Positions 6,547 through 49,925 of a DNA stretch of 64,000 bases are shown here, piece by piece. The stretch spans positions 791,613 through 855,612 of the forward strand of contig JADGJP010000006.1 in assembly GCA_027603065.1 (NCBI GenBank), written 5' to 3'. The notes beneath the pieces are model-generated. The model was not told the DNA's origin. It was given only the letters and a program-made list of their open reading frames with translations, and did no database searches. The DNA comes from Geranomyces variabilis. Taxonomy: Eukaryota; Chytridiomycota; Chytridiomycetes; Spizellomycetales; Powellomycetaceae. Each line of letters starts with the position of its first letter. The stretch's first letter is position 1. The position numbers and the translations under genes are program-made.

Positions 6547-7721
6547 CTCCTCCCTTGCTTATAGTTCTTAACACGAGAACGCTTTCTGCGCGATGCAGTT
6601 GGGGAAGGAACGAAGCAGGTCGACGTTCACGAGTCACTCCTTTCAGAAAGGGAGGGAACTTACGTGAAAGATGTAAGGAGGATTGAAGTAGCCGAGAAAG
6701 CAAATCGGCGGATCGTTTGCGAACGGATGGCCACCGAGGCTGCCGTAGGCCGACGTGGACTTCGGAGCCCCATCAATGTCGCGTGACGGCGATTGAGAAA
6801 AGCGCCCGTTGCCGAGGCACCTTGTTTCCCATATCGGAGAATTTCTCCAAGCACTTCACCCGGAACGAACAGCAAGGCTGCTGCGGATGAACTGAAAGCG
6901 TGGCGATCAACCGACAGCCGAAAGTTAAAAACACCGCGAATCGTTTCCAAGCGCCCTTTAATGCTTGGTTCAGCGAGTTCATCGGCGACTGGGAATGCTG
7001 CGACGGCAGTGCATCGGGCGAGCAGAGACCACGGATTCGATGATGGACTCGAATCGCTCTTCCCGAAACGAACGATTGTCAATGCGTCGGGGAAACATAC
7101 TCCCTGCCAGGCGCACTTTTGTTATTTGGTGCGACCGCACGTTAAAGCAAGTGCGCCTAGCAGGGAGAAGCAGAAAGCATTTGGAAGCTCAGTAGCGTCT
7201 TGAACAGATTCTGGAAAACGGATCCGCAAGGATGGAAAGAAATGGGGGGCCGTTGAGACGCGGTCTCCCAACATGGCCAACGGCAGAACCGAGGCCAATA
7301 TCTTGATTGGATACTTTGTATACGGCTCATCTCCAGCGGAGCCCCTGCCATACTTAGTTGGACCTGTACATAGCCCTCTGATTATCCTTAGCTAACATCG
7401 TAGGATATGTTGTGAGGCGGCGTATAAAGGAGCTAGCTAGAAGGGAAATTGAAAATTCTGAATATATTTCGACTTCTGCGCACATTTGGTTGGCCAAAGT
7501 GGACAATTCCCAACATCATGTCGTTGCTGGCCTATTTCGACCACAACGTCAATCAGTAAACAGCCCAAGCTGCCTTCCTACGAACAGATTGGCGAAAGTC
7601 AATTTAATTAACTTATGCCTACCTGACATGCATGGGCATCTAGCCTATAGCTTGCATGACGGTGACAAAATACAAAAAAAAGAAAAAAAAGGGACAAAAG
7701 GTTTTACCCCCCAATCACCTC
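6547..7721. other. Long stretch without a confident gene
   Basis: Several overlapping short open frames occur on both strands (for example 6660-7082 minus and 6793-7203 plus), but none shows a recognisable domain or a convincing chain of phase-matched exons. A run of A residues interrupted by G lies at about 7674-7695. I see no repeat family or transposon terminus here. Confidence 0.5.
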
Positions 7722-7800
7722 CGCATAGTTATGCTTTATGGAATCGAACCTGCAACATCAGGGTTGTCAGGAAGAAGATTAGACCACTGAACTATGCGAC
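7722..7800 (-). pseudogene. tRNA-like element, probably a degenerate tRNA gene
   Basis: On the minus strand the sequence carries an A-box-like block (TAGTTCAGTGGTCTAATC) and an intact B-box-like block (GGTTCGATTCC) at normal spacing. A perfect 9-base terminal stem (CGCATAGTT with AACTATGCG) closes the element. A loop reading CTGACAA would give anticodon GAC (valine). However, the anticodon stem and the 3' half of the T stem do not pair. The spacing fits RNA polymerase III promoters, so a tRNA pseudogene or tRNA-derived element is most likely. Confidence 0.35.
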
Positions 7801-8037
7801 GACTGTGCTAGAAATGCGCATTTCACTTGCTTCTGTGGGCAAGGGGGCGGCTTTGCGAAAAATCGGATAGACGCGCTGCGCTGACAGCGATGCGCTGCGC
7901 AGCAAGTTGATGGCTGTGCCGAGCGCTCCGCTCAGCTCCGGCACGCTTTCCTCAAAACTTCACTTCGCAAGGTACATCTTGACGTGGACGACGGCCACCT
8001 ACTACATCGCTGCGGGGACCTCGTCGCCGGTGGGAAT
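7801..8037. promoter_or_regulatory. 5' region of the dynein light intermediate chain gene
   Basis: This region upstream of the start at 8038 holds short inverted repeats built from GCGC/GAGC words, including an imperfect hairpin at 7916-7944 with GTGCC and GGCAC ends. No TATA-like box is obvious. The hairpin could affect the 5' leader of the transcript, which is inference. Confidence 0.3.
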
Positions 8038-10199
8038 ATGACCGGACCCAACACAGAGCCAGCCGATATAGCTGCCAAGGCACGATTTGGAAGCACAGAC
8101 ACTCTAGCCGACGGCGCAGGGATCTGGGATTCCATCCTCAAGAGCGTGGCATCCTCAAAGGCCGTCCCTACAAAAAATGTTTTGGTTATCGGTAGGTTGA
8201 TAAAGTAAACGCTTTTTGTTCGTTTTGGTATGCTGAGATTCCATTGCCACTAAGGGGCGGAACAGGCGGGTAAAACAACATTGATAAATGCCATCCGCAA
8301 GCAAAGAGACGCGGAGCAGACGGCGGGAGCCCGAGGATTCACTGAGCCAGAACTCGCGCTCACGTATTCTTATATGGACATATCTGATGAGGAGAATGAG
8401 GGTACGCTTGGACAGCACACCTCACCGGTCTTGCCAGTTTTAGTGATGCAAAAGAAACGAGCAGCTGACTGTCGGCGATTAAAGTCTTAGCGCGGGCGGG
8501 CTTCTATCACTTGGCCAGCGACACCGCTTTCGGGAACCTCATTCGCTTTGCGCTGGACGCGGACGCGCTTAACCATTCCATGGTGCTCATTGTCCTGGAC
8601 TGGACAAAACCGTGGGAGTTTATCACAACGCTCGAGACATGGCTTGGAGTATTGGAACGCGAGATTGCAAAGCGTACGAAAGGGTCACAGGGTCTTTTCG
8701 AAGAGCTGCAAGAGAAATGTGGGTGGTATATTTTCTCAACCCGCCGCAACAGCTTGTGTCCTAACGTCGCCATATGACGCGTAGTGGAGGTCTCCTGGCG
8801 ACGATATACGAGTCCATCAGAGGCCAAAAATGTGGCAGCACCGTCAACGAACGCGACCCCCACGCGATCGTTTCAGCATACTATAACGCTGCCTCTGGGT
8901 CCCGGCACTTTGACAAGGAACATCGGACTACCAATCGTCATAGTCGCTGCGAAGGTGGGTGGGCTTCGCTTAGCGGCGGCGACCTAATAATAATCCGCTG
9001 ACTTCGGACGCTTCAGGCAGATGCTACAGCTGCGCTGGTGCGAGACCTAGGATACAAAGAGGAGCAATTCGATTTTATTCAGCAGACTCTTCGAACAATA
9101 TGTTTGAAATGTATGTTTACTTCATCTGCCCGAGCAACGCGTTCTTATTTCGATGCAGCTAACTTTAGTTTGCAGATGGCGCTGGCCTCGTTTACACGTC
9201 TACACACCTGCCCGAAACTTTTGATACCCTGCGCTCCTACATCTTTGACCTATTGCTCTCACCGCCACCAGATACTTCAACTGCAAACGCAACGTTCAAG
9301 TCGCCATATGGACCACCGATGAAGCCTCAAGTTGTAGAGCGCGACAACGTATTTGTACCCGCGGGATGGGATAGCTGGGGCAAAATCAATATCTTGCGGA
9401 CGGGCTTCGACTGCGCAGCCATAGCTCACGACTCCGACCTAAACGGGAACAACGCGCATGAGGCCTCACCACCTACCGCAATTTACCAGAGCGTCATCGC
9501 GGTTCCGCCCGTACAGAAAGTAAGCCGTTAACTCCATACAGTGACAATTTTGAAGTGATGCTAATCTTTTTCTGCCTAGCTATACACGAGCGAACCGGCC
9601 GTAGTAGCCGAGAATGAACAGACATTCCTCGAACGGCATCTGGAGCTTTTGCAAAATACCACGGGTTCCCCTGGACCAAGCAGCTCGTCGGATCCCTCAA
9701 GGGGTGTCAAGACGCCCACGAGCCCGTCTCCGGCGCCTTCCGATGAGCCAAGAGCATCAAAAACTAGCAAATCAAAAGTAGGTTCTGGCGTCTGTATGCG
9801 CCTCTCCAGTCAGGCCGCTTACCATATCCTGTCTTATAGGATTCCGCCAGCACATCCAATCGCGAGAAAATCAAATCCCCAAACAGCGCGGATTTTCCCC
9901 TTCCAGCGTCCCTCATTTCGTCCAATGCAGTTTCGCGAGCCGCTGGAGCCATCGGGGCCAGCGCTGGAGCCGCAGTGGGCGGTTCTGGAGCAGGCGGAGT
10001 TTCTGCAAGCCAAAATGAGGTCCTCGCCAATTTCTTCCAGTCCCTTCTTCAAAAGAAGGTTCCGCCGCCCGGCCCTGGCGCACCAGTGGGAACCTCATCT
10101 AGCACCTCATCCCGAAGCGTCAGTGTCTCTGGACCCCCGATCGCGGACCTTAAGAAACCAGGCGCGAGTGCTGACAACGGCGACGAAAAAACATCTTGA
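8038..10199 (+). CDS. Cytoplasmic dynein light intermediate chain
   Basis: Eight exons join in consistent phase: 8038-8191, 8255-8401, 8491-8718, 8785-8954, 9017-9110, 9176-9519, 9580-9777 and 9840-10199, giving 564 residues. The first two exons build the Ras-like P-loop VIGAEQAGKTTLINAI. Further family landmarks are LPLGPGTLTRNIGLPIVIVA, the block YKEEQFDFIQQTLRTICLKY, LVYTSTHLPETFDTLRSYI, and DNVFVPAGWDSWGKINIL. The C-terminal third is Ser/Pro/Gly-rich with a short helix-like block (NEVLANFFQSLLQKK) resembling the effector-binding helix of animal light intermediate chains. The protein links dynein heavy chain to cargo adaptors on microtubules. Start choice: the ATG at 8038 opens the exon carrying the P-loop strand. 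Confidence 0.93.
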
Positions 10200-10347
10200 G
10201 CCGCAGGAAACCAGCAGCTGCAGTCAGGTTTCGCGTATTACGCGGCGACATCTGCAACGTCTTGATTCATGTTTATAATTAATATAGATGGGTGCGCGCA
10301 CATGCAGCGCGCATTTATTGAGGGTTCTTAGGATTAAGGCCAGAAAG
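10200..10347. other. Convergent 3' intergenic spacer
   Basis: About 150 bases between the stop codons of the dynein subunit and guanylate kinase genes. It contains AT-rich stretches (TATAATTAATATAG near 10273) that could serve 3'-end formation for one or both genes. Confidence 0.4.
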
Positions 10348-11497
10348 TCAGAGAATTGAGCAAGTCTTGGACTTCTTTTTGGTCGGCGATTCAGACGCGG
10401 AAACTGGTGCCGACGATGACGGCGCTCCTACCGCCGCCGCCATTGAGTCTGTAACTGAGCCCGCTGCGGCTCCGACTGCTGCCAAAGCACTGGATGCGGG
10501 CGCATTTGCCGGATCGGACGGCGTTGTCGTGGCCTCTGCGCCTTCGGTCTGATGAGCAATGGGCGTGGCTGATTCCTTACTGCTTGAGCCTGAGCCGACC
10601 ATGGAGTATGGTTAACACTTCGTTTTTCTGAATTTCACCCGCTCGAGACCAACCAAATATGGCAGCTTCAAGTTGCGCGGTTGCGGCCTCCACATCATCG
10701 CCGTTAATGATAACATGATCATACGGGCAAGGCGTCTCTGCACTGTAATCCATAGCTGAAGTGGCGGCAGCGAGACGAGCGTTCAATGAAGACTCGCTCT
10801 CGCTGCCTCGACCCGTAAGGCGTTCTCTTAGAACTTCGATGGAAGGAGGCTGACCAGAGGCTTGAGCGCGAGCATTTTTCGGTGCTTGGGCAGCGTGAAC
10901 TGTCGTTCTCGTAGACTCACCGCAACAAAAATATACAAGCAAGATTTGCCAGAGTTCTTCAGAGACTTAACGCCGTTCATTTCAAGGTCAAGTATGACTC
11001 TCTTGTCGCCCGCTTCCAGCGCGCTGAACGGCGTCCCGTACAAGTTTCCTGAAAAGCTATGGTGAAAACGATGTTACCGCTACAAAGAGAGTGCAAGAAG
11101 ATTCTCACCCGAAAACTCTGCATGTTCAATAAACCCGTTTTGTTCCACCATCTTCATAAACTCCTCGCGCGTCGTGTACACATAAGATTCGCCAGGCACC
11201 TCACCGGCACGCGGAGATCGTGTGGTATCTGCAAACACTTTGTTAACATCATAGCTATGATATCGCAAGAGGCTTTCTGCAGCCACTATCAACTTACGAG
11301 AGACGCTAAATTTGAAAACCCCAGGATGTTTTGCAATGACACGGTTCAATAAAGTGCTGTTGGGCATTCAAAGTAATTCAGCCGAATTGGAAGCCGGATG
11401 CATTATCCGGATGCGTAAAAGTTCAACATGCTACTTACCTTTTTCCACTACCGGAAGGGCCAGAGATAACAATGGGCTGCGACGGTAGAGGAGCCAT
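10348..11497 (-). CDS. GUK1: Guanylate kinase with predicted CaaX-terminated tail
   Basis: Catalyses ATP-dependent GMP to GDP phosphorylation. Exons in order: 11497-11439, 11356-11298, 11228-11109, 11048-10921, 10849-10639 and 10589-10348, giving 272 residues. Family landmarks: P-loop SGPSGSGKSTLL, GMP-binding SVSHTTRSPRAGEV, NLYGTPFSALEAG, and YIFVAPPSIEVLRERLTGRG. The catalytic domain ends near FGWSRAG. A 49-base GT-AG intron (10638-10590, with a TTAAC branch-like site) then joins in phase 1 to a Ser/Ala/Pro-rich tail ending KKKSKTCSIL, a polybasic stretch plus CaaX box of the kind found on Rho GTPases. If this intron is retained, translation stops at 10577 after HGRLRLKQ, with no CaaX. Known guanylate kinases of this size are soluble, so membrane targeting here would be new. 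Confidence 0.9.
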
Positions 11498-26216: not shown

Positions 26217-27740
26217 ATGGCACTCAACGTCACAGCATGCGCGGTCGACCTTCACGTCCAGGGCATATTTGCGCTAAAATGTCAGCAGTCGTTGGAACCA
26301 ACTATTCGTCAGTACGCCCAGGCGGCCGCCGAAGCCGCGGCCGAGTCCGCTGCCATGGCATACGGCGGCCCTGCAGTTTTTGTGGGCACAACATGGCCGA
26401 TCCTAATCATTGGTATGGAGCGACGATATCTGGTCCCATTTTCGCTTCATTCTGAATTTGGATTCTTTTTGGTAGCTCTTGTGATCAGTTCCTGGCGATT
26501 GAAAACCAAACCTAGTCCGCGAGCAATCTTGCTGTTTGTGGCATGTCTGTTAAACGTGTGCGACACGGCAAATTCCACTTATGGAAAGTAAGTTATGGTG
26601 CGTTTTTCTGGACTTAAACACTCCCTGCTCATTTTGTACTTAAAATCTAAATGTTCCTAGAATGATTTCGCCAATTGTATTACAAGGTGATAATGCTACC
26701 GCCACGGCGTACTACTACATGCTCATCATACTCGGTCAATACAGGTTCGGAGGTGTGAGGGCGGTCGCCCACTGAAAACTAGCCGGATTTTGTTGACGAG
26801 AAACTTGACTATTTACAGATGTGCGATAATATTCGCTGCCGCAAGCTATCGGTAAACCACAAACCCGAGCATGCAGCTGTGGAATTCCCGTGTCTGACCT
26901 AGCGCTCTCACTTGCTTCTTTTCTCTCTGTCTTTCCCTTTTTTCGTCAAAAGTTTCGCTGCAGTCTACACAGACCCGAAGATTCACCGGTGGGTGACCAT
27001 GGCAATGTGCAGCTTTGCCGCCGTTGCGTCGACGGCAAATGTCGCAATCGGTGTCCACGAGTACGCAACGACGTTGCGGGTCAGCAAGTTATTCTGGGGT
27101 CTCTTGATTATCCTGCCTTTGACGTACATAGTTCTGGGCATCGGAGTCTTTTCGTTTGTGGTACGGCAACACGCAAGGAAAACTATGCATTAAGAAGGCG
27201 GAATTTCGTCCGGCATTTCGAATTTGTATAACTGACAGCTCCCTTTTTTTTCGACAGCTATGGAAGGCACAACGTGAAGTCCGGGCCGCAAGTTCTAACG
27301 TGATGGCCGAGGAAACCAGCACGATGTCCCAACTGCAAAACGCAAACAACATTCTCATGGTTTTGACGATCATATGCGCAGCGATAGTAGTCGCTGTAAC
27401 TCAGGTTAATGCAAAAAAAAAAAAAAAAAAAAAAAAGTTGGGGAGAAATGCGAACGGCTTATCGATCGTATTTCTATGCTAACGCCGGCGTGGTTGCCAT
27501 CTTCTCTTTTTGATATTTGCGCGCGACAACGTACAGGCCCTTGACGCCAACTCGAATCAATATGTGATCCCAGTCACACTGTTCTGCAACACACTATGGT
27601 CATTGATGGAGAACTGCTTCGAGCTTTTAGCGAGGGCACAAAGCCATTCCGCTCCGCAGTCCTCCGGCACCAAAACAATTGGGAGCTATCGAAGAGACCC
27701 TTCAGCGAGGGAGCTAATGAAACATGGCTTCGTAGATTAG
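26217..27740 (+). CDS. Multi-pass membrane protein of unknown function
   Basis: Six exons (26217-26587, 26661-26744, 26819-26851, 26953-27160, 27258-27404, 27537-27740) connect in phase to 348 residues, including a 33-base micro-exon. Hydrophobic segments suggest seven or eight spans: AVFVGTTWPILIIG, FGFFLVALVIS, AILLFVACLLNV, YYYMLIILGQYRCAIIFAA, MAMCSFAAVASTANVAI, LFWGLLIILPLTYIVLGIG, ILMVLTIICAAIVVAV and VIPVTLFCNTLWSLMEN. A soluble loop between the last two or three spans is polar (MAEETSTMSQLQNANN). The topology could suit a receptor-like seven-span protein, but I recognise no signature motif, so function is not assigned. Confidence 0.65.
27413..27436 (+). repeat. Poly(A) tract within an intron
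   Basis: An uninterrupted run of about 24 A residues just after the donor of the last intron of the membrane-protein gene. It is prone to length variation and assembly error. Confidence 0.9.
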
Positions 27741-27951
27741 TTTAAAAACACGAAAAACAAGTGTACTGTAGCTTGCGAGGGACGGAAAGAGAGAGAAAGC
27801 TTTTTCCTTTTTATGTACACCGCGCAATAGACACGCTGAAATGAGATCGAGAAAATATGTTTGTAAAAATTGTAAGGAAACAGATACTATATACAATACA
27901 GGGAAGGGAGGTCGGAGGTGCAGCGCGACACGGCAGCGCTCTTCCCTATTA

Positions 27952-29719
27952 TTACGCTTTCCATACTGCCCAGTTCGTGTCGCTTTTAACGAGGGTGTAG
28001 CCCGCCTTGGGCGCCCACGAGCCAGGCCCAATCTTAACAGCCAAACTGCCTGACGCTCCAGTCGTGTACGCCGCGTAAAGCGAATTGTCGGCTTGCGCAA
28101 TGCTTACGCGCGACGTCGCCGTCACGCCTGCGGCCTTGCGGGCTGCGATCAGAGGATCGATGGTGGACTTGAGCTGTTGCGTTATGTAGTGATACCAGTA
28201 GACCGATGGAACACCTGGGTGGGTCAAAATATACGCGTATCCGAGCATAATGGAGTCCGCTGGGAAGGGCCAAAGGTTTTGGCCCGATTTGCCGTTGCCG
28301 CTCGTCGACGGCCCCGTGTCGTGGTTGTCTGGAGGAGCATTAGAATCGGGAGGTTAAGAATACTTGCCAACCTTTTTTACCTGCAAGCGCGGCTGATGAC
28401 ATACCGACAAAGGTGACCGCGTGGCCAGGGTCGATACCAATTAGACCACATGGTGCGCCATTGATCACAAGAGACGCATAGTTCGATGTGGTAATTGCAT
28501 TTTGCAGCATACCCTTTGTAGTAAAGTCAAACGCCGACGATTGCGATCCAGTCGCGAGAATCCAGTCGTGAATGCTGTTACGATGGCTGGAAGGGTCGTT
28601 GAGGTGCAAGTCCTCCCATTTCTCGCCGACGGAAAACGCGGGCGACGTTGCCTTGTTGTACTCGCCGACAAACTGACCGCCAAATCCACGCACAAAGTCG
28701 TAGCGCCAGCCGGCGTACCCAATGGACTTTAGCGTGTTGAGGTACCGGACGATGGCGGCTCGAACGTCGGCGTTCGTGTGATCAAGGTCGCGCGCGGAGG
28801 CGTAGTCGAGACCCGTGTCCGCGGCGCCTTGTGGGTGCCCTCCCTTTTGGCCCCACTCATCGCCAGAGCAAACTGCAGCGGCATTATTTGGGAACGCTGG
28901 GTTTGAAAAGTCTGCCCAGTCGCGGGTCCCCACGCGGTGGTTGACGACAATGTCGGCGAGGGGGAGAATGTTTGCATCGCCGAGATTCTTGACAAGCGTG
29001 CGCAGATCGCGTTCGAGTCCGTACTTGGTGTCCAAAATGTCCCATCGACGTGGGAGATAACCCTCGTCAGAGCCAGCGTCGGTCGCCGGAGGCAGCCAGA
29101 TCATGTGAAAGATACCCTTCAGGTTGGGTATCTGATTGTTGACGGTGTTCCACCAGGTGCCCGGCGAAATGGACGACGATGTCCATTCAAACCCCTGGAT
29201 CATGACATCGCCGTTTCCAGAAATTGTAGGTGGAGGCGGAGCAATGGTTGCCGTGGCGCCGCCTTTGGTTGTTGTTTCCGTCGCTGTTGGCGTTGTTGTG
29301 GTCGACGTAGTGGTGATTTTGTAGTTCGCGTTGCCAGGAGCATAGAATTCCTGTCTCGTCGAACCCGTAGCTATGTAATGAATGTAGAACGCCGTGGCAT
29401 CAGGAGCGCTTGCCGAAAACTTCCATGTTTCAAAGCCATTGCTTGCGGCAGAGCCGTATACGGCTGGAATCGCCTGCGCAGGCTCCCAAGATTCGCCTGC
29501 GCCCGTAGCATAGACGACAGTGACCTGCTTTTGGTAAGCGATATTCTGAACTCGGATGCTGCCGGCGAGGATTCCCTTGTCATATGTGTAAGAGACCAGC
29601 GACACTTGGACAGGATCTCGGCGAGTGGGCGCTGCGAAAGCCGAGAGGCAGGAGAGAAGCAGAACGAGGAGAGCAAGGCACGGAAGCCGGATCGCCGCGA
29701 GAGTGGTTGCTCGAGCCAT
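27952..29719 (-). CDS. Secreted alpha-amylase, plant-type GH13, with N-terminal starch-binding domain
   Basis: Two exons, 29719-28405 and 28328-27952, give 563 residues. A signal peptide (LALLVLLLSCLSAFAAP) is followed by a CBM21/CBM53-like starch-binding module (about residues 36-130, containing GSIRVQNIAYQKQVTVVYA and FYIHYIA), then a Thr-rich linker. The GH13 barrel shows GIFHMIWLPPATDAGSDEGY, LADIVVNHR, the nucleophile region GWRYDFVRG, acid/base SVGEKWED and the third catalytic site DNHDTG, which spans the intron. The barrel is closer to plant and some bacterial alpha-amylases (GH13_6/7 type, with GYLPRRWDILD) than to the usual fungal GH13_1 enzymes. Predicted to hydrolyse extracellular starch. 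The C-terminal beta-sheet domain is short and complete (ends NWAVWKA). Confidence 0.92.
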
Positions 29720-30601
29720 GGTTGGATGCTTGAATGAATTTTTTTGGCAGACTTGCCGGACATTCTTCCCTCTTTATACTCGCAGCCTTATGATGGTCAT
29801 GCAAGCAAAGGTAAACCCTGAAAGTATCCAGGTGACCTTGGTCGTGATCCACATGGTGGACACCCATCCCACCCCCGTCACTATTTATCTTCCGAAGAGC
29901 ACCACTCTTTGCGTCGCCCCGGTGCCGTCACTGCCGTTGACGAGGGGCAGGAAAGAAAAGAAAAAGTCGAGGGCGACGGGAGTAATTTTTGGGCGTTGGC
30001 TTGTGCAGCACGGCAACACGAGCAGATCACAAAAGAAGGAAAGTCACTTGCGCGTGACGCGCACGCCCCACGCACGTTCCCACCGCCCCCTCTTCAGAGT
30101 CAGAGTCCCTGTCTGTTTCTTTTGTCTTCCTTGGCGAGTGAGTGAGTCGCACCGACCTCGACCTTGGGCACCACCGGGGGCCAGAGGGTAACAAACTCGG
30201 TCGTGTGGGTTTCAACAAGCGACGCCCGACGCCCGTGCTTACGATTTCAACACTTCAAGGAGAACCGGCCACATATACAGTATCTGCCAGACTGCCCTTT
30301 GTGTCCTTGTGTGCGTAAGACCGACATCAACTATCTCAGCAGAAAATCCTTCTCTCTTCCCTGCCTTGGCATGACTGAGGACGCTTCAAAAAAACCGTGG
30401 TGGGCCCTCATTCCTGCCTCAAGCGTTGCTTTCACAGCAGGGGGCGCCTTGGAACAGTTGCAGGCGAAAGGGCGAATGGGTCGGTTACCGCGGGTCACGT
30501 GACATTTCAACATTTCGACAGGCACTTGTCGCGCGCAGCACAGAGTGAGAATCGACGCGTGGGAAATTTCGACCATCCGCAATCCTAGTCCTTCCGCCAT
30601 T
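29720..30601. promoter_or_regulatory. Long divergent promoter region, amylase / MHYT gene
   Basis: An 882-base spacer between divergent starts, the longest promoter-like gap among clearly annotated neighbours. The short open frames across it have Arg/Ser/Pro-rich shadow composition. No recognised motif can be named with confidence. Confidence 0.4.
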
Positions 30602-33600
30602 ATGTCCGCCGACCAACAGGATTCAACCTTCAACATTGCCTGGTCGCCCGGCCTCATTGTCACGAGCTTCTTGGTGTCCACGGCTGGCGCGTGGATTGCC
30701 CTCGAGCTTATCAGACTGAGAACAAGCAATCAAGGATGGCTCAATTGGATGCTGCTGATCCTTGCCTCTCTCGTTACGGGCGCCCTCGCGACCTTTGTCA
30801 TGCATGTAAGGGTTGATGCTGACTTTCACTGCTGCTGGGAAGCCAAAACTAACGCGGGCATCTAAACATAGTTCGTTGGCATGGCTGCTTTCTCTCTGCA
30901 AGGCCCTACGGACCTGCCGATTTATTTTCACACGGGGTTAGCCTGCAGTCCTTTGTGCCGTGAATCTTGCGTCAAAGTTTTTACTCAGTGTCACAATCTC
31001 AGGCTCACCGTAGGCTCCCTCTTCGAGCCGATTTTCTGCATCTCCATTGGAGTCTACGCCACCGGCGCCCAAGAGCATCCATCGTTTCGCCGGCTTTTTG
31101 CGGGCGGAGCGTGCGCCGCCTTGGGAATCACGCTAATGGTGCGTGTGCTAAAAAAAATTCAGTCCAGCCAGCTGAAGTGTTACTGTACTAATGCTTGCAC
31201 TTGATAGCACTTTACTGCCATGCGGGCCATGCGACTGTCGCTGGACTGGATTCCAACGCTTGTCGCTCTGTCGTGTGCTATCTCGTTGCTGGCCACAACG
31301 TCTACTCTGGTGCTTTTCTTTCGACTACGCGCAATGTGGCAAAACAGTCTCTTAAAGCAAACCGGTTGCGCGGTGATGCTCGCTGGGGCCATTTGCGCCA
31401 TGCATTACACAGGAATGGTCGCCGCAAGCTACTCAATCGATCCACACTTCCTGCCGGGCACGCCCGATTTGCTTGACGGAACGCTTTCGATTACCGGCGT
31501 GCTTCATATAGGCTTGGGCCTTTCCGTGCTGTGCTTCTGCATAATGATTGGACTTTTGGTTCTGCGTCTGCAGCGATATTGGAACGTGGTTCACGAACAA
31601 AAAGCACAGCTGAAACTGGCGGTCCTTTGCGTTGACTCCTGCGGTCGTATCATGGTGGACACGTTGGGACACCTGCCTTCACGCGCAGTCATCGGCGAGT
31701 TTGATTTCGACTCGGTCAGGGTTCCTATTGCCCATCCAGCGCTTCTGTGGATGTTGAAAGCGTCAACTTGCTGGGCAAAGTTCACGCATCTCAACTCGGC
31801 GTTCCGCAAGCATGGCGGGAGGGTTACCAGTCTCCTCACGGAAATTCTGGCGCCTAGCCACCCGCCGAAGCGTGGTGTGGCGAGTGAAAGCTTTGAGCAA
31901 TCACGCTTGCCTTTTTTTCGACTCTCGCTCATACAAGCGGTATCGCTCTTGGCCGGCTTCATTGGAGTGCCGCTGCAAGACATGGGTGTTTTGCATGACA
32001 AAGTCCTCAAGGCCAGAGAAGGCTGGGTGGCGTTTCTCGTGGACCGTTACGACGAACGGCGCGTAAGGGATCTTACCGCAAAAGGGTTTCGCTGGGTATG
32101 TTTGGCAAAGCTTTAGTACTCTGCCAGTCACTGAAAGCTGACGAAGCGCTCCGGCATTACAGACCGAACCCAAACTCGTCTTGCAAGTGCTGGGACGCCA
32201 ACTTCTGGTATCGCCAGTTGCACTCAAAGCAATCATATCAGATGCGGAGGACTTTGTAAGGACTCGAAGACGCCCCGTGCGAGCCGGTCTCCACGTGGGC
32301 TTGTTGTCCGTGTACCCGAGAATTTCGGGGTTTGAAGTCCTTGTTCCCACTCGCGATCGGTCCAACATACCTAGCGTTGAGCTTTCACCGATCGCATTCT
32401 CGGCTTTGCTTGAACACGCGTCATGTTTGAAGGATTTTTTGGCTCCAGTCCTATCGAGGGAAGCCGGCGCGGCCATGGTAGTCGCTGACTACGTCGCCGC
32501 GTCTGAAATTCTCTCCGCTCTCACTCGCATGGGTGTAGGCCTGGACGCCTCGTCTCCCATAAATTTGCAAGTGCTGAGTCCGCCTGAGGATGTGCTGGTG
32601 CTCCGTCGTCGTGGAAAACATGAGGGCGGGCCGAATGGAAGCGTCTGCGAATCGAATTCGGAGCGCGCAAGCTACAAGTGGGTCTCACGAGTACCCTTTG
32701 AAGCATACAGGGCCGCGCCAAACTCCTGCGACACGGACATGCTTCTCTTTGTCCGAATTCATTCGTTCTCTTCTGCAAAGTTTTCGCCGCCGACTCCGGG
32801 GTTCCAGCTGATGGACCTTGCTGCCTTTGAAGCCATGAATTACCCGCGCTGCTTTCCGGATCGCTTTCGCCGAATTCTTGGCTTGGAAATGAGCACTGAA
32901 TGGGACGACTTGATAATGCCGACTTTTCTACAGCTCGACAAAGCCACCGGCATGCAATCCACAGATTCGGACAGCGAGAAGAACGACGAGGATGTTACGC
33001 AAGTGGATCTGAACAACTGCGGTTCATCAAACGAAGAGCACGCTGTTATCGATGTTGAACAAATGCTGCGCGAAGGTCCGGCAGGCGGTGAACCGCCTGC
33101 GATCGACTGGCAACTTCGCACTGACAATGCGTCGAAAAATGTGGCCAAACGCGGCGTGTCGCTCATCAGGATGCTTAAAGCGTTTCCGCCACAGCCTATG
33201 CGTCGCGCAAGCGCTATTTTCTCTGAATACAGCAGCAGCACAACGGGCGGTGGGTTTGGCGTGACGAAAGGCGTTTCGGAAAACATTTGCCTGGATGACT
33301 TTCCCGTTCTTTGTCACACTGACATTTATGGCGATAACGGCGATAACGAGTTTTCTGACAGCGACGATAGCATCCCTCTGGCGATTGGGCCGCACGCGTC
33401 TCAGGTGGCTAACGCATGGCAGGCCATGCGCTGGGTCAAGCTATACCTGAACGCTGCGCTTCAGTTTACCGGCCCTTCTGGACCAGGCGGACCGGCGCTC
33501 GCGACGCCCACGTTTGTCAAACCGCCTCCTCCTCCGCGGGCGAAATTTGAGCAACAGGTGCCCGAGCGGGTGGTTGTGGCGCGCGAATCGCTTTCGTCAA

Positions 33601-33683
33601 CGTGGTTTGGAGGCACGCGTCGGAAGGACAGGGAGGCTGGCAGGTCGTCTGTGGTTGGTGGTGACGGCAGCCGTGGCGGATAG
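30602..33683 (+). CDS. MHYT-domain integral membrane sensor-like protein
   Basis: Five exons, 30602-30805, 30872-30936, 31003-31138, 31208-32095 and 32163-33683, give 937 residues. The first ~260 residues hold an MHYT domain: membrane spans each end with a related motif, MHFVGMAAF (about 67), MHFTAMRAM (about 135) and the canonical MHYTGMVA (about 200). In bacteria such domains are proposed to bind copper and sense oxygen, CO or NO. A seventh hydrophobic segment (LGLSVLCFCIMIGLLVLRL) leads into a long cytosolic part that I cannot assign to any family. It has repeated conserved-looking blocks (LPFFRLSLIQAVSLLAGFIG, YKWVSRVPFEAYRAAP) and an acidic, Ser-rich tail. The combination suggests a signalling receptor with an uncharacterised output region. 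Confidence 0.85.
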
Positions 33684-45414: not shown

Positions 45415-46671
45415 TCAGTGCCCTCCCTTCGCCACTTCGCACTCGGCCATAGGCTTCAGGGAAAAGATTTTGGCGCCGCCAGCAAGACTGCCCAAAATCG
45501 CCTCGTGTACGTCCGCCCGCATTTTCTCCTCAAACACGCGAATGTTTTCCATCAAGTCGCCTGTCTTGCCGATAGCTTCCGCAAGCTCCGCCGCAGAGTT
45601 TAGAGCCGTGTTTGCTCCAGACCCGCCAGTGGGCGTCATGGCGTGAATCGAGTCGCCAATCAGCACTACGCGCGACGGGGTCCATGGCGCAAGCTCCGGG
45701 CGCGAAGATGTCATACCCAGAGCTGCCAGCTGGTCAGCAGGTGCCAGTTCAATGAGCGACCGGACTGACGGGTGCCAGTCCCGTACGAGCGCCACCGCAA
45801 AGTCCTTTGCTCCTTGTCCAGACAAGTGGCTGAACGCGGCATCGGCGGCGTCGCTCTGGAGACCCAAGTTGTCGACTGTGCCGCCCAGGACCCAATAGAT
45901 GTAGTCTTTTTGAGATTTCAGGCGGGCATCGACATCGTGCGGGTCCCTGGAGAACCGAACAGGCTCCAAGAACAGAGAGACCGGGCGCGGGTCCTTGAAT
46001 ACAGCCATGCACCGGGTGGCGTTTGGCGTCAAAACGGTAAGAAGTTCGGCAGTGAGAGGTGTCTTGCCATAGATAACCCGCGCGCCCATATCGACGCGCG
46101 GGTGCAAGTCACCGGGCAACCGCTGCTGCTTGACGCGCGAACGCACGCCGTCGGCGCCGACGAGAATGTCGCCAATTTCGCTGGTGCCGTCCGCAAAGTC
46201 AACCTGGATGCGGCCAGTTGGCAGCTCTTGGTAGCGGACAAACTCCTTGTTGAACTGCACTGCCCCCTCTTTAAGGCCAGTGAGAAGCACGCCACGCAAG
46301 GTGGTCCTGTCGCATGTGAACACGTCGTCGGGATTTTCGTTGCCCTTCGGCGGAGGCGGCCGTGGGCCGCCGACGTTGATGTCGCCCGTCAGAGGATTAA
46401 CAGATGCGAAACCAAGAACGGTTTTCGCGGCCGCTTGCTTAAAGAGCTCCCAAGTAGGCGCCGGGAGGAGTCTGCGCAGCGCACCGGATCCTCGTGCGTC
46501 GATACGGAGACGATAACCTTGCGAGCGAGCGCAATAAGAAGCGTCGCGGTCAAAGACGGCGTAATCAGGAATGTTGAGTTTGGCCAAGCCTTGGGCGAGA
46601 GCGAGGCCGCCGATGCCGGCACCGATGATAAGGACTCGAGGATGGGCGGGTTCGATTGTAGTGGTAGTCAT
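45415..46671 (-). CDS. FAD-dependent monooxygenase (class A, PHBH-fold)
   Basis: A single exon of 418 residues, notable among intron-rich neighbours. The FAD-binding Rossmann motif VLIIGAGIGGLALAQGLAKL opens the protein; GDILVGADGVRSRVK is the DG motif and VVLIGDSIHAMTPTGGSGAN the GD motif with flavin-ring contacts. The arginine of GYRLRIDARGSGALR supports NADPH/FAD handling. The enzymes hydroxylate aromatic or polyketide-like substrates; the substrate here cannot be inferred. No signal peptide or membrane anchor. The lack of introns could reflect later acquisition or processed-gene origin, which a phylogeny would test. A tandem repeat lies in its divergent promoter. Confidence 0.92.
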   Translation of the reverse strand: MTTTTIEPAHPRVLIIGAGIGGLALAQGLAKLNIPDYAVFDRDASYCARSQGYRLRIDARGSGALRRLLPAPTWELFKQAAAKTVLGFASVNPLTGDINVGGPRPPPPKGNENPDDVFTCDRTTLRGVLLTGLKEGAVQFNKEFVRYQELPTGRIQVDFADGTSEIGDILVGADGVRSRVKQQRLPGDLHPRVDMGARVIYGKTPLTAELLTVLTPNATRCMAVFKDPRPVSLFLEPVRFSRDPHDVDARLKSQKDYIYWVLGGTVDNLGLQSDAADAAFSHLSGQGAKDFAVALVRDWHPSVRSLIELAPADQLAALGMTSSRPELAPWTPSRVVLIGDSIHAMTPTGGSGANTALNSAAELAEAIGKTGDLMENIRVFEEKMRADVHEAILGSLAGGAKIFSLKPMAECEVAKGGH

Positions 46672-46775
46672 CGTTTGCGTTGTAAGGTGTTGTGGGCCGG
46701 GAGTCGTCGCCGTGCTGGGCTTTTATATATCCCAAGCCCAGACATGGACACTTCCAATGGCTGGAATCCCGCGAG

Positions 46776-46883
46776 TCTCCGGTAGCATAGCCATATGTGG
46801 ACGTCCGTAAAGTGCGACTCTCCGGTAGGATAGCCAGACGTGGACTGGTAGGATAGCCTTACGTGGACGTCCGTAAAATACGG
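46776..46883. repeat. Degenerate tandem repeat in a divergent promoter
   Basis: Three diverged copies of a roughly 43-base unit containing CCGGTAGGATAGCC and ACGTGGACGTCCGTAAA. Copy 1 is 46776-46818, copy 2 (shortened) 46819-46845 and copy 3 46846-46883. Each complete copy contains GTGGACGTCC, with a GACGTC palindrome typical of bZIP-type sites. It lies between the start of the monooxygenase gene and the doublecortin gene. Confidence 0.75.
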
Positions 46884-47071
46884 AAGTCCGATGTTTTTCT
46901 CGGAGATATTCGTTACCAGAACGCGTGGCCTCTTTCGCGCGCGCGTTGGCGGCGGAGGTGGCCGCCGTGGCTTGCGGGTGACTCAGCATGGCGCTGTCCA
47001 AAAACAGCCAAGCGAGCCGGACAAACACACGACAGCCTGCCAGAGTCACTCGTACTTACACTACTACAGCC

Positions 47072-49925
47072 ATGTCAACTCTGGAGGAGCGCAGCAAGCG
47101 CATTCGCGTCTTCCGCAACGGCGATATATATGACCGCGGTCGCAGGCTTGTAATCAACCCGAGGGTGTACCGAAACTTCGAGCAGGTTTGATCGGCGCGC
47201 ATGTGCACGTGGCAGAACCGCTCTTAACTCGTCCTCTATCATCTGTCTGCTTTCTGGGCGTTCTCACCCGCAGTTTTTGTCTCGGCTGTCCAAGGACCTC
47301 AACCTCACCAATGGAGCTGCGCGCCGCGTGTTTGCTCTTACAACCGGCCAGCCGGTCGCCAGTCTCGATGACCTAGCGGATAATGGCATCTACATTGCGT
47401 CCGCCGGGGACGCGCTGAAGCGGATACCATATCTTGTGGATCCGTCTGCAACTACTGGGAGCCAGATGCAGTTACCTCAACACGAACCGCCAGGACGACG
47501 CCTTTGGCATGCGGCGACTGTTGTGCCTCGCAGAGTGTTTAAACAGGGTGTCCTGGAAGCCGGAACTAGCGGAGAAGAACTGCGGGATCGGGAGCACACG
47601 CTGTTTGGACCCACCGTATGTGTGCGCTATGGGTACACGCTCGAGCAATTGCTGAAGTTCTGAATTCCTTTTCCACAGAGCAAAGCATACAAAATCACCG
47701 TGTTTCACAACGGCGAGGCGTCCATCCCAGGAGTCAGCTCCGTTTTGAATTACCGCAACTGCCGGTCTTTCGAGCAGTTCCTTCGCCACCTCACCGAGCT
47801 GTTGCGAGGGAGCGTTCGCAAGGTATACGATGCAGAGACGGGAGGCCGCATCAATAATCTGCGCCAAGTGCGCGACGGTCAAAACATAGTCGTCGCAACT
47901 AGCATGGCGGAAGGCTTTAAGCGCGTTCCGTATCTGTTCCCAGACGGTCGTCGCGGTGTGGTAGAGCAAGACGTAAGCCGAAATGGGAATAAGGTGGCCA
48001 TCTACTTGTCCCGATTTCGCTCATGTTGCTTCTTGCCGATAGACACCAAGAGTGGCGAGGTTCTTTCCTAACGGCGACGCACTGCATACAGGTCAGGTGG
48101 TCACAATTACCAAGAAAATGTTTCCAACAATGCAACGGGTGAGTGCGTTGGCACAGAGCTGAATGCCGTCCGCCATGCGGGCTCTCGACTCATGCAGTCC
48201 CGTCCTCGATATCTGCAGCTTCTTGATCACCTCAATGCCAAAATTCATATGGTTACTGGGACAATTCACAAGGTATACTCGTTGACAGGACAGCGACAGC
48301 ACACGGTGGACGACCTTGCCTCCGGCGGGGACTACGTGGTAGTGTCCAACAACGACGCATTCATCGCCGTGCAGTACAACATCAATGCATTAGGCCACCT
48401 ACATCGCACAAGCATTATAAATCACGATCCGTCGACAACCGCGGTCACGCGGCGCATTCGCAAACTGCGGAAACGAAAAAAGAAAGAAGGAGACGCGACG
48501 CAGCCTGCGGAATCGGCAGACGATTCGGAGGATCAGGGATATCAAACCGATGTCACGACCACGGTTGTAAAGCGTATTGTCAAGAAGAAAAAAGCGCGGG
48601 CACCAACTCATGAAGAGGAAACTCCTGCCGTGCAACATACAGCGACGACGAAAACAGCGGACGTGCCTCCTCGAGCAGTGTCGCCAACCGAGAACATCGA
48701 GCATGATGATTATCACCGCCGCCTTCCGCCAGCTTCTACCACCGCAATTGCTGCGGCGTCTGCAGCATCGAGCTCAAATCCCGCGCCAGCTGCGGCGGTC
48801 ACGCTGCTAGTTTATGGCCCTCAAACCCGCGAGGAAGCCGGCTGGAAGCCGGCTCCGGCACCTGCACCACAGAATGAGGTAGCAAGCGCCACGGTAAAGT
48901 CCCATGTTTCATCAGGACACCAGCCGCAGATCCAACATCATGGCGAGTCTCCTGCCGCAGCGAGCGCTACGACCGCGGAGAAGAGCGCAGATATGAGCGG
49001 CTTCATAAAAGGAACCGATATGAGCGCGTTTATGAAGGGCACCAAGACGCATGTGGAGGCAGCAGAACTTGAGAAGCCCTCGAGTCGCGGAGCTAACACC
49101 AAAACTCAGAAAGAACCGCCGCAGCGTGGCGAGAACGAAGAGTCTGAAGAAGGCCACAGCTTTTTCTCCAAGGGCAAAGAGCGCACAACACAGCAAAAGC
49201 CGGATGAAGAGAAGTCGGATGGACAGGGATTCTTCACAAAGGGCAAAGAGCACACAACACAGCAAAAGGCGGATGAAGAGGATTCGGAGGGACAGGGATT
49301 CTTCACAAAGGGCAAAAAGCAAACAATACAAGTAAAGCCCGAGGAAGAAGAAATCGAAGGACGGGGATTCTTCACAAAGAGCAAAAAGCAGGTGGAGACC
49401 GTGCGGATCACGGACACAGAGTCGACGCGGCCGGCCCACAATGGCAACGCACCGGTCGGTGAGGAAGCACCGCCTTCTCAATCGACTATCACCTTTGTGA
49501 AAAAGTCCGATACGGAAGGATACTTCACAAAAGGTTCACAGAAGCTTGCCGCCCCGCATCTCTCGTCCTCCACCTCCACGACCACGTCGGTATTGAGCAA
49601 AAAGAAGGGGCGAGACGGACAGGCGGGCGAGGTCGAAGAGGAAGTGGTATCGTTGCCGCCCGGTCCGGAAGTGGCTGCTGGACCTGCCGATGCCAACGAA
49701 ATGTACGGCGAATCTTCAGCAGTCCGAGTGCTCAAGTCAACACATCCAGTACACGGCATGTCCTCATACTCCAGTAGTCCAAGCGCTACACGGAGAGAAA
49801 GCGTCGGAGAGAGTGAGGAGGAGGAAGAAGAAGTGGTCGAATACGAGACTGTGACAACGAAGGTGCCAGGCAAGAAAACCCGAAGCTTGTTGCCAGGATT
49901 GCCCCGAAAAAAGACAAATAGTTGA
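47072..49925 (+). CDS. Doublecortin-domain protein with three DCX domains and C-terminal repeats
   Basis: Five exons (47072-47185, 47274-47615, 47679-47972, 48043-48138, 48219-49925) give 850 residues. Three doublecortin domains are visible: IRVFRNGDIYDRGRRLVINP (about residue 11), YKITVFHNGEASIPGVSSVL (about 155) and VARFFPNGDALHTGQVVTIT (about 255), each followed by the typical FLxxLT and 'VRxxYxxxG' features. DCX domains bind microtubule lattices; proteins of this kind in flagellates are doublet-associated. The middle is Lys-rich (KKKKEGD, KKKKARAP). The C-terminus carries 'MSxFxKGT' pairs, then 23-residue repeats with FFTKGKE, then a Ser/Glu-rich end. It converges with the stomatin gene across 51 bases. 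Confidence 0.9.
49152..49391 (+). repeat. 69-base coding tandem repeat
   Basis: About 3.5 copies of a 69-base unit encode 23 residues of the form GFFTKGKEHTTQQKADEEDS. The DNA copies are similar enough, including synonymous positions, to suggest recent duplication. They lie in frame at about residues 593-672 of the doublecortin protein. Confidence 0.9.

Follow-up and report, generated by a model that had tools for sequence, protein, structure and literature searches.

A minus-strand guanylate kinase gene with a predicted polybasic CaaX tail encoded by a separate last exon

The guanylate kinase gene and its catalytic domain

The stretch of DNA analysed here (64,000 nucleotides, referred to as the window) carries a guanylate kinase gene of six exons on the minus strand, from 11497 to 10348 (Table 1). 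Four introns inside the catalytic domain are demanded by homology, and a fifth is predicted at the domain end, from where an 80-residue low-complexity tail leads to the C-terminus KKKSKTCSIL. The full-length predicted protein has 272 residues. Guanylate kinase phosphorylates GMP, a step in the making of GTP, and is generally regarded as a housekeeping enzyme that is soluble in the cell.

Table 1. Features at the guanylate kinase locus, in window positions
Feature	Position	Strand	Basis
Exon 1, start codon and P-loop GPSGSGKS	11439..11497	-	homology
Intron 1, 82 nt, GTAAGT...CAG	11357..11438	-	removal required by domain alignment; gene finder agrees
Exon 2	11298..11356	-	gene model
Intron 2, 69 nt	11229..11297	-	removal restores SVSHTTR; missed by gene finder
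Exon 3	11109..11228	-	gene model
Intron 3, 60 nt	11049..11108	-	gene model and gene finder
Exon 4	10921..11048	-	gene model
Intron 4, 71 nt	10850..10920	-	gene model and gene finder
Exon 5, end of catalytic domain; 3' limit 10639 with the GTGAAA donor	10654..10849	-	alignment
Intron 5, predicted, preferred 64-nt form, GTTGGT...TTAAC...CAG	10590..10653	-	splice scoring
Intron 5, predicted, 49-nt form of the earlier note, GTGAAA...CAG; frame and tail unchanged	10590..10638	-	splice scoring
Last exon: Ala/Ser/Thr/Pro-rich tail, KKKSK, CSIL, TGA stop	10348..10589	-	frame and coding score
CaaX codons C-S-I-L	10351..10362	-	sequence
AATAAA, hexamer resembling a poly(A) signal, 28 nt past the CSIL stop	10314..10319	-	sequence
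Stop codon of the intron-retained form (...HGRLRLKQ)	10577..10579	-	sequence
Dynein light intermediate chain (DLIC), convergent neighbour, predicted model, N-terminus uncertain	7656..10199	+	domain match

With the four domain introns removed, the protein matched PF00625 with 163.6 bits over residues 7-186 (cut-off 25.2) and TIGR03263 with 176.7 bits against a cut-off of 160.45. Altogether 43 PDB sequences were matched, with E values down to 2.3e-48, the top matches being single-domain guanylate kinases, and these profile and PDB matches bear out the identity that the earlier note had assigned to the gene. When all families at an E value of 0.001 were considered, the 272-residue protein showed guanylate kinase and four P-loop families, and nothing else. 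In two alignments, GPSGSGKS, SHTTRSPR, EHAEFSGNLYGT and RLTGRG, which we take to be the P-loop and GMP-binding motifs, all align with solved guanylate kinases (GMKs), and a gap of three residues falls directly after YGTPFSA, outside these motifs. The sequence thus shows a complete kinase domain with its P-loop and GMP-binding motifs, and predicts a probably active enzyme.

The gene finder that we employed was trained on the window itself (codon usage and donor, acceptor and branch weights); its splice-site training was done without intron 5, while the codon table did include the codons of the tail. It reported 26 genes, recovered all the domain introns except intron 2, and terminated the kinase gene at CSIL. 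Two features of its output were rejected as artefacts, namely a 1083-residue fusion of a HEAT-repeat gene with the kinase, and the reading through intron 2, whose removal is needed by homology. Intron 2 itself has a length that is a multiple of three and contains no in-frame stop, and its retention would keep the frame and place 23 extra residues inside the GMP-binding motif SVSHTTR.

The fifth intron and the tail frame

The earlier note had placed at the domain end a 49-nt GT...AG intron (10638-10590) with a TTAAC branch-like site, joining in phase 1. This string is present, and the branch A lies 23 nt before the exon. The proposed donor, GTGAAA, scored poorly: among in-frame joins into the tail it reached 13.1, whereas GTTGGT at 10653, the donor picked by the gene finder, reached 16.6 and is 3.5 bits better, giving an intron of 64 nt with the same acceptor. 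Measured against the 109 predicted introns of the window, a yardstick of unverified predictions that includes the 10653-10590 intron, the GTGAAA donor stood at the 4th percentile and was used by none of the 109, and the total score of the 49-nt intron was at the 7th percentile. Moreover, 168 of 2994 random GT-AG pairs matched or beat the score of the 49-nt form. The predicted intron 5 is thus more likely the 64-nt one, although its signals are weak with either donor. The junction reads ...AAIFG-SSSKES... with donor 10653 and ...AAIFGWSRAG-SSSKES... with donor 10638. The same tail follows from both, and the CaaX claim is therefore independent of which donor is used.

Joining the domain to the tail gains 17.71 bits of coding and splice score in comparison to stopping at 10577. 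When the downstream sequence was shuffled 1000 times with its dinucleotides preserved, this gain was never reached (best shuffle, 17.69), so that the 80-residue tail with the end KKKSKTCSIL, as described in the earlier note, is both present as a frame and more than chance by the shuffle test. The gain was 17.15 bits when the whole kinase gene was excluded from codon training. The length of the tail alone is not rare, because tails of at least 78 codons arose in 64 of the best joins from the 1000 shuffles; Cys at position -4 occurred in 17 of the 1000. A harder control was provided by 226 ORF ends (window ORFs of at least 60 codons with no predicted gene close by on the strand of the ORF), five of which gained at least 17.7 bits, the highest 52.7, in a count whose threshold of 17.7 leaves out ends between 17.15 and 17.7.

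When intron 5 is retained, the frame stops at 10579-10577 after the C-terminal extension GEIQKNEVLTILHGRLRLKQ, the product ending in ...FGWSRAGEIQKNEVLTILHGRLRLKQ. Per codon, this extension scored -0.09 bits (20 codons), as against +0.16 for that part of exon 5 which belongs to the domain (66 codons) and +0.22 for the tail (80 codons). We also considered the opposite strand, where an ORF at 10322-10552 (+), antisense to the tail, scored 0.20 bits per codon overall and outscored the tail in the 67 codons that they share (0.34 versus 0.24 bits per codon). Synonymous bias over the tail was near equal for both strands (0.054 versus 0.058). Codon usage was thus rejected as a strand test, the plus-strand ORF scoring equally or better, and codon statistics leave the strand unsettled. 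The coding-like composition of this ORF may simply mirror that of the Ala/Ser-rich tail on the other strand.

Downstream, about 150 nt separate the CSIL stop of the kinase gene from the convergent DLIC stop at 10199. An AATAAA within 100 nt of the stop was found in one of the 26 predicted genes, the kinase gene alone, which makes the hexamer a weak argument, and it may not be a signal used by this genome.

The CaaX end and its possible meaning

The predicted end KKKSKTCSIL has a C-terminal CaaX motif in which X is Leu, with a basic cluster nearby. CaaX boxes with terminal Leu favour GGTase-I. We surveyed 1902 ORF ends (at least 20 codons, six frames, whole window) and found a CaaX motif with at least four K/R in the eight preceding residues only once, namely in the kinase tail. 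The marginals, 28 CaaX-like ends (25 under an extra filter) and 66 basic ends of 1902, give 0.97 joint cases expected. The chance of a polybasic CaaX is accordingly about 5e-4 per ORF end and about 0.013 across the 26 gene ends. In the other 25 predicted genes, Cys at -4 did not occur. A phmmer search with the last 23 residues against PDB gave no match up to an E value of 10. According to the accessible text of PMC8146680, fungal Ras and Rho proteins commonly end in a polybasic region followed by CaaX, CaaX being present in 99 of 111 fungal Rho proteins and a polybasic region in 76 of 111; prenylation is thus the natural expectation for the kinase tail as well.

Several other readings of the locus have to be weighed. 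If intron 5 were not real, the gene would encode a soluble kinase ending in HGRLRLKQ, and the tail would be a chance frame in the 3' UTR, perhaps of compositional origin. Such a frame would fit the weak donors, the control ORF ends that gain as much, the shuffled joins with tails of comparable length, and the antisense frame, which is just as coding-like. We nevertheless consider it unlikely, for no shuffle attained the gain of the tail, the polybasic CaaX stands immediately before a stop, and the retained extension scores as non-coding; with the tail included, moreover, the convergent stops come to lie close together and an AATAAA follows. An assembly indel could also account for the change of frame between domain and tail, in which case there would be no intron 5 and the CaaX tail would be read directly. 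The weak intron signals and the overlap of both open frames, from 10611 to 10580, agree with such an error, but an in-frame GT...TTAAC...CAG exists and is used by the gene finder, and the kinase gene has four other introns, which makes an indel most improbable.

Other readings accept the tail and give it a different role. The earlier note saw in intron 5 a switch, whose regulated retention would yield a soluble form beside the membrane form. Weak or competing donors are common at alternatively spliced introns, and here a weak donor is found together with two competing in-frame donors; however, the retained extension is without a coding signature, its score of -0.09 bits per codon contrasting with those of domain and tail, and some product arises from any retained intron. 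A meaningful soluble form made by retention was thus not upheld, and a regulated switch seems very doubtful. The tail could also be real but not prenylated, with its end used otherwise, for example in nuclear import or binding. Lysine runs, as present here, can act in nuclear import. Substrates of GGTase-I, on the other hand, carry by rule Cys at -4, Ile at -2 and Leu as the last residue, with lysines just upstream, and this is the arrangement found at the end of the tail, so that we regard a non-prenylated tail as distinctly unlikely.

The reading that we prefer, and hold to be rather probable as a prediction from one genome stretch, is that of a normally spliced, prenylated and membrane-anchored GMP kinase in a fungus that is probably zoosporic. 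The membrane enzyme envisaged in the earlier note is kept in it, as the sequence supports a polybasic CaaX tail on a standard kinase, and the soluble retained form is dropped. The separate last exon would extend the kinase by a flexible linker, followed by clustered lysines and a CaaX box, and intron 5, most likely 10653-10590, would be spliced out of most transcripts. GGTase-I would then geranylgeranylate the Cys of CSIL, SIL would be cleaved off and the Cys methylated. The prenyl group and the charge of the lysines may tether the enzyme to endomembranes or to the plasma membrane, and the anchored kinase would convert locally released GMP to GDP. This GMP might come from cGMP hydrolysis in zoospore signalling or from the use of sugar nucleotides in glycosylation, the evidence favouring neither source.

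For both candidate sources there is some background in other organisms. In Blastocladiella, a zoosporic fungus, according to the accessible text of PMC4046227, cGMP serves phototaxis, a rhodopsin-guanylyl cyclase is located at the eyespot, and cGMP phosphodiesterase activity was reported in zoospore formation, while Dikarya are said there to be without a cGMP pathway. Guanylate kinase belongs to the nucleotide cycle of vertebrate photoreceptors (PMC5826319, accessible part), and in yeast it matters in mannose outer chain elongation (PMC5732230, accessible part). If the proposal is true, the fungus would have an unusual means of producing GDP close to the membrane GTPases, the cGMP turnover or the glycosylation that require it, and the lipid-anchored kinase would be a testable case of local guanine nucleotide supply. 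A Blastocladiella homologue with such a tail, if one exists, would offer a direct route to the signalling link.

Related enzymes and other genes in the window

The kinase resembles yeast Guk1-type guanylate kinase in the whole catalytic domain and in its motifs. The last residue aligned to 1gky, which is presumably the yeast enzyme, is residue 187, the F of AAIF, opposite residue 184 of the 187 in 1gky; the protein predicted here is about 80 residues longer and has a CaaX end. The guanylate-kinase-like domains of MAGUK and FAP42/LRGUK also match it, but these are longer multidomain proteins, the FAP42 chain counting 2540 residues as compared with 272. Fungal Rho and Ras GTPases have the C-terminal layout that is predicted for the kinase (PMC8146680, accessible part), whereas their catalytic domain is unrelated, the window protein being a metabolic kinase. 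MoGuk2 of Magnaporthe likewise joins a fungal kinase domain to a further module, which is, however, an N-terminal efThoc1 domain in a protein of 810 residues (PMC5732230, accessible part), while the module of the window kinase is C-terminal; a profile search at E 0.001 found no efThoc1 domain in the 272-residue protein. The words "membrane" and "prenyl" have no occurrence in the accessible text of the MoGuk2 paper (PMC5732230). Plasmodium adenylate kinase 2 is also a nucleoside monophosphate (NMP) kinase with a membrane-directing lipid (PMC7884776 and PMC4912828, accessible parts), but it is an adenylate kinase with an N-terminal myristoyl group, in contrast to the C-terminal prenyl group predicted here.

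Module-bearing fungal guanylate kinases (MoGuk2) and a lipidated NMP kinase (Plasmodium adenylate kinase 2) are already known, and the window kinase is thus a variant of a known enzyme. What appears to be new, judging from one genome stretch, is the predicted polybasic CaaX end on a guanylate kinase. Among the matches listed in the open-access literature (titles and abstract openings, with most subscription papers outside this set), no prenylated guanylate kinase was named. Searches with the kinase domain gave 7 pattern stretches in viral contigs and 57 stretches in prokaryotic genome contigs, with no confirmed relative in either set. A degenerate DNA pattern for HAEFSGN.YGT was absent from the viral contigs and found in 52 stretches of the prokaryotic genome contigs, all 52 with bacterial titles.

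Elsewhere in the window, no tRNA gene was found and no Rfam match at gathering scores. Its predicted domains include COG3, polysaccharide deacetylase, phosphoglucomutase and an Arf-family GTPase domain, and a match to Chs7, the chitin synthase export chaperone, of 365 bits. We take Chs7 to be a fungal marker, and its presence alongside doublecortin presumably points to a flagellated lineage; the chytrid affinity assumed in the earlier note is plausible. The doublecortin match (141 bits) consists of three stretches in the middle of a predicted protein at 45684-49925 (+), followed by short GFFTKGK-like repeat units; the N-terminal part of this model is doubtful. Upstream of the kinase, in tandem with it, lies a gene with a weak HEAT-repeat match (about 14654-11729, minus strand), which is adjoined by a WD40 gene at 17650-14905. 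A predicted protein at 26983-29719 (-) carries a CBM21 starch-binding module and then an alpha-amylase domain, and another, at 30371-33683 (+), gives an MHYT match (Pfam "Bacterial signalling protein N terminal repeat") within this fungal window.
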